64,000 bases of DNA from Prevotellaceae bacterium (GTDB lineage: Bacteria > Bacteroidota > Bacteroidia > Bacteroidales > UBA932), in NCBI GenBank assembly GCA_031289415.1, contig JAITPN010000023.1, positions 1-64,000 on the forward strand. Reading direction: 5' to 3'. The notes beneath the pieces were generated by a model. It worked only from the letters and a program-made list of their open reading frames with translations. It had not been told where the DNA came from and made no database searches. Numbering within the stretch: the stretch's first letter is position 1; each line of letters begins with the position of its first letter. A program made the position numbers and the translations under genes. Shown here one piece after another: positions 7,936 to 60,899 of this stretch.

Positions 7936-8412
7936 TTATTCAGGACGTTCCACTACGTTTCCAGAGCGTTCTCTTGAACCGTCCGTGCGTTCCACTACGC
8001 TGCCGGAGCGTTCCCTTGAACCGTCCGTGCGTTCCACTACGTTTCCAGAGCCTTCTCTTGAACCGTCCGTGCGTTCCACTACGCTGCCAGAGCGTTCCCT
8101 TGAACCGTCCGTGCGTTCCACTACGTTTCCAGAGCCTTCTCTTGAACCGTCAGGACGTTCCACTACGTTTCCAGAGCCTTCTCTTGAACCGTCAGGACGT
8201 TCTACTACGTTTCCAGAGCCTTCTCTTGAACCGTCGGGACGTTCCACTGCGCTTTCAGGCGCTTCCCTGTCGTCGACGGCAGTAGCAGTAATGGCAGCAG
8301 GCGATGCGTTAAATATCGCCGACTCTGCCGGATCGTCGCTTTTACAAGCAACCGTTAGCGCCAAGCCTGCTATGAGACTCGTTGCGCTCATTAAAAATGT
8401 TTTTTTACTCAT
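7936..8412 (-). CDS. Lipoprotein with BACON-like N-terminus replaced by heptapeptide-pair repeats
   Basis: A 158-aa predicted lipoprotein. The lipobox is LTVAC (Cys23). The first 45 residues align with the start of the large lipoprotein at 54752 (SLxAGLAL..AC..DDP.E.....N.SPA.ITATA), that is, the start of a BACON domain. After residue about 50 the BACON sequence stops and the protein becomes a 14-residue repeat, VERPDGSREGSGNV with variants (P/T, G/R, N/S), about seven times to the C-terminus. The DNA just upstream (AACATTTTTAAAAACATTTT) also matches that before 54752. Because 42 is a multiple of 3, other frames are open too. This frame is preferred for its signal peptide, lipobox and terminator. 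Function unknown; probably surface-exposed. Confidence 0.75.
   Translation of the reverse strand: MSKKTFLMSATSLIAGLALTVACKSDDPAESAIFNASPAAITATAVDDREAPESAVERPDGSREGSGNVVERPDGSREGSGNVVERPDGSREGSGNVVERTDGSRERSGSVVERTDGSREGSGNVVERTDGSRERSGSVVERTDGSRERSGNVVERPE
7944..8265. repeat. 42-bp tandem repeat (2 x 21 bp) inside the lipoprotein gene
   Basis: Seven full copies plus partial ends. Each copy splits into two related 21-bp halves, both beginning GTTC (GTTCCACTACGTTTCCAGAG and GTTCTCTTGAACCGTCCGTG, one base omitted from each). Copies vary mainly in CCGTCCGTGC versus CCGTCAGGAC and TTTCC versus CTGCC. There are no unique spacers, so it is not CRISPR. Confidence 0.92.
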
Positions 8413-8525: not shown

Positions 8526-9191
8526 TTACGGCACTATCGCATTTACGATTTCGCTCCACGGACCTTTTTCGCCCGTCGTATTTTCCCAACAAAGGCAGAA
8601 ATACACGGTTTTTCCGCGCTCGTTTTCGTCAAACTCAAGCGTAAACGGCGTGCGCGTATCGAACGACGAATTGGTGAGTTCTTTCAAATGCGATACCGGT
8701 TCGTCGCGTATCGCCCACCGGATTTCTACGCCGTGCACGCCTTCGGGCTTCGCCTTCTTCGTTTCTTGGTCGAAGAAATGAATGATGAGGCGGCGGATTA
8801 CCGTACTGTCCACCGTAAAATACGGATACCTCGTAGGCGCAGGCACATGCGTGCGCGTCGTTTTGTGAATCGGCAGCTCCATTGCCGTCCGGTCTTCGTC
8901 CGTTACGAGCGGGTTGTTCGTTACGTACGCCCTCAGCAACGCGCGTATGCCCGTTTCCGCCGCATCGCGCGCTTCACGCTTCGCGGTAACGGCAACCGGC
9001 GTATGCGTTGCCTGATTATCAACTACATCTAACGCTACGGAAAAATTTGCCAGCAGCTGCTCGATGTGCTGCTGTTCGGCTTCAGGAATATTCCATACGC
9101 CGAACATGTTTTTTAAATAATTAACCACTAAGGTTAGCCATTCCAAGAATTGATGGTCTTTTGTAGGTACAAAATCACGTTTGTTTGCCAT
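8526..9191 (-). CDS. Conserved hypothetical protein, C-terminal Fn3-like segment (221 aa)
   Basis: Not recognised at family level with certainty. There is no signal peptide. Residues 1-110 look mainly helical (FLEWLTLVVNYLKNMFGVWNIPEAEQQHIEQLL). Residues about 120-221 look like a beta-sandwich of fibronectin-III type, ending in the conserved-looking TVYFCLCWENTTGEKGPWSEI. It is the gene immediately downstream of poly-C leader cassette A: the frame that reads through the 21-bp array ends at 9209, 17 nt before this ATG. Its expression may therefore depend on translation of that leader. It lies upstream of the repeat lipoprotein and may share a transcript with it. Confidence 0.7.
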   Translation of the reverse strand: MANKRDFVPTKDHQFLEWLTLVVNYLKNMFGVWNIPEAEQQHIEQLLANFSVALDVVDNQATHTPVAVTAKREARDAAETGIRALLRAYVTNNPLVTDEDRTAMELPIHKTTRTHVPAPTRYPYFTVDSTVIRRLIIHFFDQETKKAKPEGVHGVEIRWAIRDEPVSHLKELTNSSFDTRTPFTLEFDENERGKTVYFCLCWENTTGEKGPWSEIVNAIVP

Positions 9192-9261
9192 AACTTATAA
9201 ATTTTTAATTAGTAAATATGTAATAAATAAACTGTTCTGCTTTGAGCGTCCCCGAAAGTTC

Positions 9262-9470
9262 TCCCGACATACCGGACGTTGCTCCCGACATGTCGGATGG
9301 TTCTCCCGACATGTCGGATGATGCTCCCGACATGCCGGATGATGCTCCCGACATGCCGGATGACTCTCCCGACATGTCGGATGGTTCTCCCGACATGCCG
9401 GATGATGCTCCCGACATGTCGGATGACTCTCCCGACATGTCGGATGACGCGCTCGATATGTCGGGAAAGT
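9262..9470. repeat. 21-bp tandem array A, palindromic core CCGACATGTCGG
   Basis: Ten units with an exact 21-bp period, each starting TCCCGACATGTCGG (or GCCGG) then a 7-nt spacer of the ATGATGC/ATGGTTC/ATGACTC type. The 12-bp core is a perfect palindrome in about half of the units. All frames on the reverse strand are open, giving heptapeptides such as RHVGSII or SGMSGAS. The outermost units (9262 and 9451) are degenerate. No spacers. Confidence 0.95.
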
Positions 9471-9485
9471 TTTACGGAAAACATA

Positions 9486-9707
9486 CTATATATATATATA
9501 GGTATAGGAATATGCAAGGGCGTCCGCGAGGGCGCGGCGGTCATTCCTGAAAAGCGAAAACAGCGTAACTTGCTGATTTTCAGCGGGGGGGGGGGGGGGG
9601 TAAAAACTAAAATTTTTAAAAATCGAAAGCGGAGCGATGGAAATAGCGGGGCTGAAGGGGGTTTTGTGTCCTCCGGCGCGGGCGTCTATCCTATCTGTAC
9701 GTTTCAT
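9486..9707 (-). CDS. Leader ORF A carrying a 16-C tract (polyproline), candidate phase-variable
   Basis: A 73-codon ORF starting at ATG 9707, about 25 nt after the predicted start of the promoter at 9738-9768. The first 36 residues (MKRTDRIDARAGGHKTPFSP...) precede five prolines encoded by the C-run, then AENQQVTLFSLF and YTYIYI from the TA-repeat, then a stop at 9488-9486 just before array A. With 15 C instead of 16 the frame is open through all of array A to 9209 (about 166 aa in total). With 17 C it stops at once (CGC TGA). The segment after the C-run resembles that of leader B at 54.47 kb (NQxVT). It may be a regulatory leader rather than a functional protein. Confidence 0.5.
   Translation of the reverse strand: MKRTDRIDARAGGHKTPFSPAISIAPLSIFKNFSFYPPPPPAENQQVTLFSLFRNDRRALADALAYSYTYIYI
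9585..9600. repeat. Homopolymer G(16)/C(16) tract
   Basis: Sixteen consecutive G on the forward strand. Tracts of this length slip readily during replication. It sits inside leader ORF A, so each one-base change shifts the reading frame. The assembled length may itself be uncertain. Confidence 0.9.
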
Positions 9708-9737
9708 TTTTTATACTGAGTGTTACAATAATGGATG

Positions 9738-9768
9738 CAAAGTTACATATTAAATTTAATTTTACAAA
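9738..9768 (-). promoter_or_regulatory. Promoter of leader cassette A
   Basis: On the reverse strand, -33 TTTG (9768-9765), a 19-bp AT-rich spacer and -7 TAACTTTG (9745-9738). This is a full match to the Bacteroidetes sigma-A consensus. Transcription would start near 9732 and run through the leader ORF, the C-tract and array A into the gene at 9191. Confidence 0.8.
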
Positions 9769-54278: not shown

Positions 54279-54309
54279 GTTGCGCGGAACAAAAAAATCA
54301 CTACCTTTG
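54279..54309 (+). promoter_or_regulatory. Promoter of leader cassette B
   Basis: -33 GTTG (54279-54282), 19-bp spacer, -7 TACCTTTG (54302-54309). Same spacing as cassette A. Transcription would start about 54314 and run through leader ORF B, the C-tract and the 21-bp array into the lipoprotein gene. Confidence 0.78.
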
Positions 54310-54347
54310 TGCCAATAACCGTTATTTAATAATATTTATTTAACAAA

Positions 54348-54476
54348 ATGAACATTGTAGCCGTATATCCTTTGCAACCCGTGAGCAAGCCCTCAGCAGC
54401 CCGCGCCCGCCGCGCCGTTTCCGCTCGCGCCCTGCCGTTCCCAATGGATAATAAGGTTACCCCCCCCCAACTGTAA
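54348..54476 (+). CDS. Leader ORF B carrying a 9-C tract, candidate phase-variable
   Basis: A 42-codon ORF from ATG 54348: MNIVAVYPLQPVSKPSAARA..., rich in Ala, Arg and Pro, then ACC CCC CCC CAA CTG and stop at 54474-54476. With 10 C the frame continues as PTVNQTVTKIRLL..ARTAHIYIKVS and stops at 54613, before the array. With 8 C (or 11) it stays open through the TA-run and the 21-bp array to a TGA at 54748-54750, one base before the ATG at 54752. The segment after the C-run resembles that of leader A (NQxVT; AAATCAG..AGTTACG). Likely a regulatory ORF. Confidence 0.5.
   Translation: MNIVAVYPLQPVSKPSAARARRAVSARALPFPMDNKVTPPQL
54460..54468. repeat. Homopolymer C(9) tract
   Basis: Nine consecutive C inside leader ORF B, with TATATATATA at about 54543-54554 downstream. 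Both can slip during replication. Confidence 0.9.
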
Positions 54477-54646
54477 ATCAGACAGTTACGAAAATTCGCC
54501 TTCTTGGTGCGCTTCAGTGTCCCTGCTTCGCCCGCACGGCGCATATATATATAAAGGTATCATCTCCTCCCGCGGATGTGAACTCCGCCGGAACGAAAAC
54601 GGAGGGAGCATGACGGCTTTTAGAATATCCATAAGATTTACTGAAC

Positions 54647-54709
54647 CGTTCCCTTGCGCTACGGAATCATTCCCTTGCGCTAAAGAGCCGTTCCGAGCGC
54701 AACAAAACA
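54647..54709. repeat. 21-bp tandem array B (three units)
   Basis: Units begin CGTTCCCTTGCGCTACGGAA, CATTCCCTTGCGCTAAAGAG and CGTTCCGAGCGCAACAAAAC, each 21 bp long. TTCC/GGAA and TTGCGCT/AGCGCAA give inverted symmetry within or between units. In the read-through frame they encode the heptads EPFPCAT, ESFPCAK, EPFRAQQ. Confidence 0.75.
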
Positions 54710-54751
54710 GTTCAACACCTCAACGATTAAACATTTTTAAAACATTTTGAT

Positions 54752-57079
54752 ATGAAACTAAGACATTTTATGATTTGCGCAGCGAGCCTCACAGCAGGCT
54801 TGGCGCTGGTTTCCGCCTGCGGCGGAGATGATCCGGTAGAACCGGCGAAACTTAACGTATCGCCCGCTACCATTACAGCTACCGCCGATGGCGGGGCTTC
54901 AACGATTACGGTGGACGCTAATAGAACGTGGACAGCCGTAAGCGACGATACCGAAATTGCGGAAGTAACGGGCAAAACGGACAATTCGTTCGTGATTGAC
55001 GTAGCGCAGAACACAAGCGAGACTGAGCGTACGACGACCGTAACCGTGTCGGGCGGCGATTTGTCGAAAACCGTAACCGTAACGCAAGCGGGAAAAGGGG
55101 TGAACGAAGTACTGCTGAAAGTAACGCCCGCTTCGGCTGACGTAGCGGCGGCAGGCGGCACGTCGTCGTTTACCATAGAGTCCAACGGCGCATGGGCGGT
55201 TACGAGCAATCAGACGTGGGCTACAGTATCGCCCGCAAGCGGTTCGGACAACGGCACGATTACCGTAACGTCCGAAGTTAATGAAGGTGCAGCCCGCACG
55301 GCAACCATTGCCGTAAAGGCAGGCGACAAGACGGTAAACGTAACCGTGAAACAAGCAAGCGGCGCAGGATGTCCTACTATTAGTGATTTGACATGGGTAG
55401 AAGTTACGACTTTCCCGCTTGTTAACACCGGCAAGTACATTGACAAGGCACAAGTTCTTCCGTGCGAATCGGCATTGACTCTATTCGGACGTACCGATGC
55501 TATTCCTTATAAATTTACGCTTACGGAAGCCGGTACGCTTTCTATTGAGGAAAGGAACACCAAATGCGGCGTGTATATATATGCCGACCTTGCCAAAGTA
55601 GGTAATATGTCGAATACGCCGGATCACGGCTTGGTAAATCATGGCGACAATGGCGCATGGAATCCTCCGATTAGCGCATGCACGGTAACGCCCGGTACTT
55701 ATTATGTGCTGGTTTTCTACCGCCGCGACAGTGATGGCGACGGCGATGCCTACCAACTTGACCTTGAAGTAACGTTTACGCCGGACAACACCGATCCGAC
55801 AGAGCCAACGGAAGTAACCATTAACGGCGTTACGTGGTCAACCCGCAACGTAGGCGAACCCGGTCAATTTGTGGCTACCATGAATGATTTGGGCAAATTG
55901 TATAAGTTTAACAGCAAAGTGCCATGGGATATTCCTACAAGTGCAAGCGCATCAGCTCCTGCAGGTTGGGATAATACGCAATCGGCAGGTACGAACAACT
56001 GGCTAAGAGCCAACGACCCCTGCCCCGCAGGATGGCATGTACCCGATATGGCGGATTATGAAACCAGTTTCAGCGGCAACGGCTTTGGCGGCGCAGTATG
56101 GCTTGACGGCACCGCAAAGGACGCTACCGTACCGGGCGGATTAGTCGGCAAAACCAACGGCAACGGTTGTATTTGGTGCGACTTGACTACCGAAGCATCG
56201 AGCGCAACGTCTATTTATGCCAACAATGTAGTATTCTTCCCCTATGTACCGCAATGGGCAGTAAATGGTACGGTAAAAGACTATTACGAAAAAAATACTC
56301 GTTACTGGACAGCGACGGCGGCAGGAGGTTATGATAATCTGTCGGCGTACCGGTGGTTTATATTTGATAATATGATTGATCATGGTAACGATGCCAATGA
56401 TAGCGAACAGGTGAAAAACAAAGGCAATGCTTACCCTGTACGTTGCGTGAAAGGCGAAGGTACGCCCGACCCTGCAGACCCGACTTTGCAAGACTTCGTT
56501 GTGCCGGGCGATGCCGCAGTAGGACAAACATGGGATTTGAAAGACACACGCGACGAACAGATTTATCCTGTGGTAAAAATGGCTGACGGTAAAGTTTGGC
56601 TGGCGAAAAACTTAAATTTCACCCAAGGACTCACGGAAACCAGCGATTATCTTTGTCAAGATGGTCATTGCGACCGTTGGGGCGTGCATTACGGATGGAG
56701 CGCGGCACAAACTGTCTGCCCCACAGGATGGCATGTACCTACAAGACCGGAAGCGGATGCTCTTAGTGGCGCTCTTAGTGCAAAATACGGTGACGGATCA
56801 AATGTAATAGCGGCTTTGGCTTTACCCAATGACCCCGAAGCGGGATTTGATTATTGGAGTACAGGCGATGGAGGGATTGCAACTTACAACAACGATACCA
56901 AATTCAATGGTATCGGCAGTGGCAGTATGTACGGTCCCAACGCGCCCGACCACTTTCCGAGATTATCGCGTAGTTGGGTAAATCAAGGAAAATTCGAATT
57001 CGGTTTTGGCGGCGGACATTGGGCTGTAGAAGGTTTTAGCCCAGACGAATATTTTACTGTCCGTTGTATTAAAGACTAA
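54752..57079 (+). CDS. Large lipoprotein: two BACON, PPC-like and two 'major paralogous' (FISUMP) domains
   Basis: A 775-aa protein with lipobox VSAC (Cys23). BACON 1 (about 32-112: LNVSPATITATADGGASTITVDANRTWTAV), BACON 2 (about 120-205: WAVTSNQTWATVSPASGSDNGTITVTS), then a pre-peptidase C-like beta domain (about 210-350). FISUMP 1 (about 355-572) has WSTRNVGEPGQF, NDPCPAGWHVPDMADY and AYPVRCVKG. FISUMP 2 (about 590-775) has WLAKNLNF, CPTGWHVPTRPEAD and FTVRCIKD. The domains fit a surface protein. It is downstream of poly-C leader cassette B, and its ATG lies one base after the read-through frame's stop, which allows coupling. Its N-terminus matches the repeat lipoprotein at 7936. Confidence 0.9.
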   Translation: MKLRHFMICAASLTAGLALVSACGGDDPVEPAKLNVSPATITATADGGASTITVDANRTWTAVSDDTEIAEVTGKTDNSFVIDVAQNTSETERTTTVTVSGGDLSKTVTVTQAGKGVNEVLLKVTPASADVAAAGGTSSFTIESNGAWAVTSNQTWATVSPASGSDNGTITVTSEVNEGAARTATIAVKAGDKTVNVTVKQASGAGCPTISDLTWVEVTTFPLVNTGKYIDKAQVLPCESALTLFGRTDAIPYKFTLTEAGTLSIEERNTKCGVYIYADLAKVGNMSNTPDHGLVNHGDNGAWNPPISACTVTPGTYYVLVFYRRDSDGDGDAYQLDLEVTFTPDNTDPTEPTEVTINGVTWSTRNVGEPGQFVATMNDLGKLYKFNSKVPWDIPTSASASAPAGWDNTQSAGTNNWLRANDPCPAGWHVPDMADYETSFSGNGFGGAVWLDGTAKDATVPGGLVGKTNGNGCIWCDLTTEASSATSIYANNVVFFPYVPQWAVNGTVKDYYEKNTRYWTATAAGGYDNLSAYRWFIFDNMIDHGNDANDSEQVKNKGNAYPVRCVKGEGTPDPADPTLQDFVVPGDAAVGQTWDLKDTRDEQIYPVVKMADGKVWLAKNLNFTQGLTETSDYLCQDGHCDRWGVHYGWSAAQTVCPTGWHVPTRPEADALSGALSAKYGDGSNVIAALALPNDPEAGFDYWSTGDGGIATYNNDTKFNGIGSGSMYGPNAPDHFPRLSRSWVNQGKFEFGFGGGHWAVEGFSPDEYFTVRCIKD

Positions 57080-60484: not shown

Positions 60485-60768
60485 AAGTAGCTACCGATGC
60501 CCAATCGGTAGCTACTTATTTGAAAAAAAGTAGCTACATAGCCGAAATATGTAGCTACATAAATGAAATATGTAGCTACCTAAATGAAATATGTAGCTAC
60601 ATAATTGGAATATGTAGCTACATAAATGGAATATGTAGCTACATAATTGGAATATGTAGCTACATAATTGGAATATGTAGCTACATAAATGAAATATGTA
60701 GCTACATAATTGGAATATGTAGCTACCTAAATGAAATATGTAGCTACCTAATTGGCATTGGTAGGCAC
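60485..60768. repeat. 21-bp tandem palindromic array D (core TATGTAGCTACATA)
   Basis: GTAGCTAC recurs at 60487, 60508, 60530, 60551, 60572, 60593, 60614, 60635, 60656, 60677, 60698, 60719 and 60740, and as GTAGGCAC at 60761. Spacing is 21 bp except for one 22-bp step. Typical units are the 14-bp palindrome TATGTAGCTACATA plus AATGGAA or ATTGGAA. The first two copies form a 14-bp hairpin (AAGTAGCTACCGAT / ATCGGTAGCTACTT) that may end the protease transcript. A 106-codon frame runs through it from a TTG, but it has no ATG and no domain. It fills most of the 478-bp gap 60455-60932. Confidence 0.96.
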
Positions 60769-60899
60769 TTTTTTCGATTCGTCCAACTGTTTTTAAGAAT
60801 AGGGAGGGAGATGATAGAAAACGCCATGCTTTCTATTTGAATTAGAGATAAGTACTTTAGATGTAGAACAAATTTCTTGTAAAATCATCAAAAAAGATG

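Follow-up and report, generated by a model that had tools for sequence, protein, structure and literature searches.

Poly-C leader cassettes with a one-frame read-through rule in a Bacteroidales genome, a likely phase-variable switch of upstream ORFs

About 17 poly-C leader cassettes or cassette-like settings were identified in a Bacteroidales genome (2.06 Mb, 106 contigs), in which the number of C residues within a short upstream ORF determines whether that ORF stops early or reads on to about the start of the next gene. We consider it likely, with a probability of about 0.7, that these cassettes represent slipped-strand phase variation of an upstream ORF, with the gene gated through translational coupling, relief of Rho polarity or both. 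The anatomy of the cassettes and their membership in a family of copies are shown, whereas slippage is inferred; data on expression, ribosome profiling or individual reads were lacking.

The window, i.e., the whole stretch of 64,000 nucleotides analysed (positions 1-64000 of one contig), contains cassette B and, on the opposite strand, its sister cassette A. The assignment to Bacteroidales rests on promoters, proteins and named matches. The features of cassette B are as follows.

54279-54752, + strand: cassette B, a poly-C leader cassette ahead of a lipoprotein gene
54279..54309, + strand: Bacteroidetes-type promoter GTTG-N19-TACCTTTG, read from the sequence
54348..54468, + strand: leader ORF from the ATG at 54348 to the end of the C-tract (MNIVAVYPLQPVSKPSAARARRAVSARALPFPMDNKVTPP), by frame recomputation
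54460..54468, + strand: poly-C tract of nine residues (C9), predicted slippage site, read from the sequence
54469..54492, + strand: post-tract motif AACTGTAAATCAGACAGTTACGAA (wider consensus AACTTTCTGATAATCAGTTAGTTACAGCG), containing the TAA that stops the C9 frame
54543..54553, + strand: TA-run, possible second slippage site; most cassettes of this genome have such a run behind the tract
54610..54750, + strand: ORF2 (MTAFRISIRF...), lying in the read-through frame of C8 and opened by an ATG that overlaps the TGA ending the C10 frame (ATGA, 54610-54613)
54643..54694, + strand: 21-bp array of 2.5 copies, in frame, 7 codons per unit (TRF)
54748..54750, + strand: TGA terminating the C8 read-through frame, one base ahead of the lipoprotein ATG at 54752
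54752..57079, + strand: putative controlled gene, a BACON/Fib_succ_major lipoprotein of 775 aa with signal MKLRHFMICAASLTAGLALVSAC (Pfam PF19190, PF13004, PF09603)

Rechecking of the coordinates placed GTTG at 54279-54282 and TACCTTTG at 54302-54309, separated by a 19-nt spacer, and CTGTAAATCAG at 54471-54481. When the frames were recomputed by changing the C count, C9 gave 42 aa ending in CAA CTG TAA, C10 gave 88 aa with the stop ahead of the array, and C8 gave 133 aa crossing the array to the TGA one base 5′ of the ATG at 54752. It is possible, as inferred from the sequence, that C10 is not fully OFF in cassette B, because its TGA overlaps the ATG opening ORF2 in the read-through frame; the same ATGA junction was also present in three other copies of this genome (C105, C69 and C65). 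An earlier note, prepared by inspection of the letters, had given the coordinates of cassette B, all of which held, and the same three frame outcomes, which held on recomputation; its count of three 21-bp units was slightly generous, as TRF gave 2.5. An Rfam scan of the window revealed a tRNA-Phe only. It was also noticed that a small lipoprotein at window 7936-8412 (- strand) contained 42-bp repeats in frame (VERPDGSREGSGNV) and had a signal region resembling that of the cassette B lipoprotein, and that a conserved lipoprotein start module occurred at many loci.

The features of cassette A are as follows.

9237..9760, - strand: cassette A, with leader ATG at 9707, C16 at about 9585-9600 and CTGAAAATCAG at 9573-9583
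9261-9464, - strand: array of 21/42-bp repeats, by repeat search
8526-9191, - strand: gene behind cassette A, 221 aa, without a Pfam match

With C16 in the assembly, cassette A had a single read-through class, C15, stopping 17 nt before the gene; the length of its TA-run shifted the frame relative to copies C31 and C93. The gene behind it belongs to a family of approximately 220 aa (M..DFLPRKDxxFLxWV.NFL) that recurred directly behind cassettes in both genera examined (L099, L113, L126, L169, L173 and window 8526-9191, the window copy being the one noted above as lacking a Pfam match).

The frame rule is shown by comparing 50 cassettes, drawn from this genome and from relatives and each with a promoter and no fewer than 150 nt beyond the tract, with 300 sets of dinucleotide shuffles made from their own sequences. 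In 27 of the 50 cassettes, two frames closed within 30 nt and the third remained open for more than 120 nt, as compared to 2.8±1.6 in the shuffles (maximum 10), and at least one early-stop frame together with one frame exceeding 120 nt was found in 47/50 (shuffles 14±3, maximum 22). The first stop after the tract was commonest at +10 to +13 and the second at +21 and +22; these early off-frame stops, which are likewise shown, were supplied by the post-tract motif itself (TGA, then TAG or TAA). In every C-tract cassette of this genome that was traced as far as its gene, one C-count class read to about the gene start. Among the 27 clear cassettes, 5 were in the ON frame in the assembly, 15 were one C short and 7 were one C over. 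Several reservations apply to these counts: 1) the 50 cassettes are related by descent and hence not independent, 2) the leader ATG was selected for being open, with the longest frame taken as ON, 3) homopolymer counts in MAGs are uncertain, and 4) the filter is leaky, with two long frames in four cassettes (L119, L123, L155 and L180) and, in the type III cassettes (B, C105 and C69), a second frame that also reaches the array through the ATGA junction. The order of elements and the single read-through frame, which the earlier note had described as common to cassettes A and B and as hard to explain by chance, held, and the rule recurred in abundant further copies. The search for such copies, which it had proposed together with a test of the open frame across them, found copies in this genome and in relatives, and the test gave a pattern above that of the shuffles, both of which go beyond chance. 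As for variation of the C-tract, lengths of C8-C19 were seen between copies only, there being no reads and one genome per species.

Twenty-six C-tracts of 8 or more residues were present in the genome, about 17 of them in the cassettes or cassette-like settings. Similarity searches with cassette B matched C105, C69 and C65 (81%, 78% and 73% DNA identity, respectively), and those with cassette A matched C31 and C93 (85%), C13, C38, C57, C66, C64, C35 and C10; more divergent cassettes were C22, C36, C66b, C90, C91 and C92. The anatomy shared by the copies comprised a Bacteroidetes promoter, with a -7 box TAnnTTTG ahead of most cassettes, a leader ORF some 30 codons long, T(T/C)TA-C(8-19), the motif AACTTTCTGATAATCAGTTAGTTACAGCG, in-frame arrays with units of 21 or 42 bp and, lastly, a gene. 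Several leader families recurred with different downstream parts, the MYNRLY leader preceding three kinds of post-tract sequence, and several copies were located at contig ends. The copies were located through searches and single stretches only, and strict patterns undercount them: CTGNAAATCAGNNAGTTACG was exact in cassettes A and B only, most others diverging at that site. Two loci without a tract (C66 and C57) were permanently open or fused.

Some further loci were observed beside these. L068 (C64) and L070 (C35) were cassettes without a C-tract, locked in an early-stop frame, and the gene behind C64 looked truncated, which suggests decay following loss of the switch. At a contig end, L140 (C37:1-28) carried a C23 tract with, on the opposite strand, a G-tract after a MYNRLY-like leader, i.e., a rearranged or misassembled cassette. 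Possible simpler phase-variable sites were a C8 a few bases 5′ of the ATG of an OmpA-like gene (L189, C72) and a C11 just past the ATG of a long ORF (L133, C14).

In relatives, TA-C8 tracts were detected in 12 of 13 genomes (same genus plus one other genus of the family), with 1 to 10 in each; not all of them are cassettes, but the majority combined a promoter, an ATG leader, T(T/C)TA-C8-19 and the motif, in many cases with a tandem array as well. Three Alistipes/Rikenellaceae MAGs and one termite Bacteroidales MAG also had single C-tracts accompanied by a closely related motif; at the termite locus, C10 would read to 29 nt before the next gene and the assembly has C9. The strict motif was rare across the order (2/393 genomes in each of two scans, the matches in G308 and G309 being weak) and absent from IMG/VR viral contigs. 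In one relative, a second post-tract copy (CTGCCGGCTTTCAACCACCGCTTCC...) and a 21-bp array lay just upstream of a cassette (L164, G424:C18), which suggests tandem duplication.

The read-through ORF ended mostly between -17 and +55 nt of the ATG of the next gene, at -1 in B, C105 and C38, and overlapped the gene in C31, L113, L126 and L169; in C36 and C92, one open class fused the leader in frame to the lipoprotein. The closeness of stop to ATG partly follows from the AT-rich stretch behind the array. Between tract and gene, TAnnTTTG was found in 1 of 42 cassettes versus 20% of matched segments, so the absence of an internal promoter is shown as far as this consensus test goes. Since the -7 box is rare there, the gene seems to rely on transcription from the leader promoter. 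Terminator-like hairpins followed by a U-run were found between tract and gene in 2/54 cassettes, below background. Judged by N-terminal sequence, the other downstream genes encode lipoproteins, carboxypeptidase-regulatory/TonB-type proteins and secreted proteins; many begin with lipoprotein or secretion signals and some do not.

The leaders are shown to be neutral at the amino-acid level, with a pN/pS of 1.01 over 36 non-independent leader pairs of the wider set. Across the leader stretch the leader frame was open, and the other two frames were open in 0 and 2 of the 50 cassettes. The earlier note had given NQxVT as the translation common to the two post-tract stretches; this failed, since it lies outside the read-through frame of both cassettes (in the C10 frame of cassette B and the C16 frame of cassette A). 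The idea of a conserved NQxVT peptide was rejected because, in the ON state, cassettes differ in the frame in which the nucleotide motif is translated, all three being used (23/12/7). With a pN/pS near 1 and a motif translated in any of the frames, there seems to be no selection for the leader peptide or for NQxVT as a product, and it is likely, as inferred from sequence alone, that being translated matters and the peptide does not. Codon-position bias after the tract was near flat, without a clear coding signature. Array periods were 21, 42 or 41 in 32 of the 33 arrays found after tracts by TRF, and the array sequences differed widely; because units of 7 or 14 codons are multiples of 3, a change in copy number keeps the frame. 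Inverted repeats within array units had a mean stem of 4.9 bp versus 3.7 bp in shuffled units, and leader RNAs had more stable folds than their shuffled counterparts (mean z -1.6 over 54), some forming giant hairpins. In L180, L182 and L184 (G002), the leaders consisted of AATGAACAATTAACAATG-type repeats, with a giant hairpin around the start codon and z down to -5.8. Another 21-bp array, GTAGCTACATAAATGGAATAT, of 10.8 copies and with a GTAGCTAC palindrome, was observed between two genes at window 60520-60770; it had neither C-tract nor leader, and its period equals that of the cassette arrays.

The predicted mechanism is that transcription would start at the leader promoter and a ribosome would initiate at the leader ATG, with slipped-strand mispairing altering the C count and thereby setting the frame on leaving the tract. 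In the OFF state, typically two of the three classes would stop within about 5-30 nt, leaving the array untranslated and the gene poorly expressed; in the ON state, the third class would cross the 21-bp array and stop at, just before or just after the gene start, or occasionally carry the ribosome into the downstream gene in frame. Such passage would permit re-initiation and protect the mRNA, so that the signal would be the act of translation and not the peptide. ON/OFF expression is an inference, and whether the OFF state would result from lack of re-initiation or from Rho-dependent termination on untranslated array RNA cannot be separated by sequence. Bacteroidetes initiate translation without Shine-Dalgarno pairing and in a manner sensitive to mRNA structure (PMC6847099), in keeping with a gate that consists of ribosome passage.

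Three alternatives were considered. The first takes the read-through ORF as the gene of a functional repeat protein that is itself phase-variable, with the downstream gene a mere operon neighbour. In its favour, the ON ORF spans 80-190 aa with 7-aa repeats, some arrays share a pattern (SGDSPRP, SGDTLRR, IGNSLRP; C35 array, by eye) and QLxxxQLVTA recurs in many open frames. However, the leader pN/pS is about 1.0, the repeats vary between cassettes, the post-tract motif is read in three frames and a plain protein switch would not need immediate off-frame stops, so we regard it as unlikely. The second, also improbable, is that the C-tract and motif are the target of a regulatory RNA or protein, with length-dependent control at the RNA or DNA level and the frame incidental. 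Conservation of the motif at the nucleotide level, its occurrence with a C-tract near single genes in the Alistipes/Rikenellaceae MAGs and the stable folding of leader RNAs (mean z -1.6 over 54) speak for it, but it predicts neither the frame filter nor open frames running through long arrays to end near the gene. The third, pil1-type attenuation, in which the untranslated array or flank would form an intrinsic terminator prevented by translating ribosomes, shares the logic of Streptococcus gallolyticus pil1 (PMC3894217) and could draw on the inverted repeats in array units (stem 4.9 vs 3.7 bp), but is very unlikely with terminator-like sites at only 2/54, below background.

Upstream-ORF phase variation, the reading we prefer, has its closest precedent in the leader-peptide phase variation of S. 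gallolyticus pil1/pil3, where GCAGA repeats alter leader peptide length and ribosomes open a terminator (PMC3894217). In both systems a simple-sequence repeat lies in a short upstream ORF, its frame sets how far ribosomes reach towards surface genes (here by prediction), and out-of-frame leaders stop early. They differ in that the repeat is poly-C here and GCAGA there, with many copies per genome here and two loci there, and that the intrinsic terminator acting as the gate there was not found here; neither a two-frame stop motif nor 21-bp in-frame arrays appear in the relevant sections of PMC3894217. Among the criteria of a pil1-type system, a frame-deciding repeat in an upstream ORF is met and an intrinsic terminator is not, both as inferred from sequence alone, and the lack of a separate promoter after the leader is met by the consensus test only. 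The principle is likely that of pil1/pil3, the differences residing in poly-C, the two-frame stop motif, the 21-bp arrays and multi-copy modular use.

The cassettes also resemble the homopolymer contingency loci of Neisseria, Campylobacter and Helicobacter in having poly-C/G of at least 8 residues within an ORF, where one unit changes the frame, and surface-exposed or secreted products; these criteria are met, with ON/OFF expression and within-species variation inferred. In contingency loci the tract is normally part of the switched gene or of that gene's promoter, whereas here it lies in a separate, modular upstream ORF. The leader G-repeat of H. pylori acted on by RepG (tlpB-hp0102) is likewise a variable homopolymer in an mRNA leader, but acts by sRNA pairing with graded length effects and not by reading frame (PMC8295292). 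As in translational coupling of adjacent genes (PMC3711429), the upstream stop lies at or near the downstream start; unlike in coupled genes, the upstream ORF here appears to be without a conserved product and is frame-switchable.

What the copies have in common extends from the promoter as far as the array, and members of one leader family can be followed by different downstream modules. A bolder reading, which we offer tentatively and would not yet favour, is that promoter, leader ORF, poly-C, two-frame stop filter and 21-bp array together form a phase-variation cartridge, portable and complete in itself, which is duplicated and recombined ahead of unrelated surface genes. The array would then have no function as a product and would tighten the OFF state by exposing untranslated RNA, and the conserved motif would serve duplication, slippage or recombination. 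If this cartridge reading is true, the cassettes would be a dedicated class of contingency element, switching genes without repeats inside those genes.

Phase variation described in Bacteroidales is mostly DNA inversion, and nothing direct on a poly-C leader system for this order was found in the literature searched. Annotation is likely to miss the cassettes, given that their leaders are short and in most cases not in frame; counting the C residues in metagenomic reads could directly give the predicted state, ON or OFF, of every locus. The system also bears on translation restart in bacteria without Shine-Dalgarno pairing. If our preferred reading is true, these bacteria would possess a slippage-based upstream-ORF switch that can be placed before any gene and is present in many copies, controlling lipoproteins, TonB-type receptors and other secreted proteins, so that cells could randomly show or hide a surface protein.
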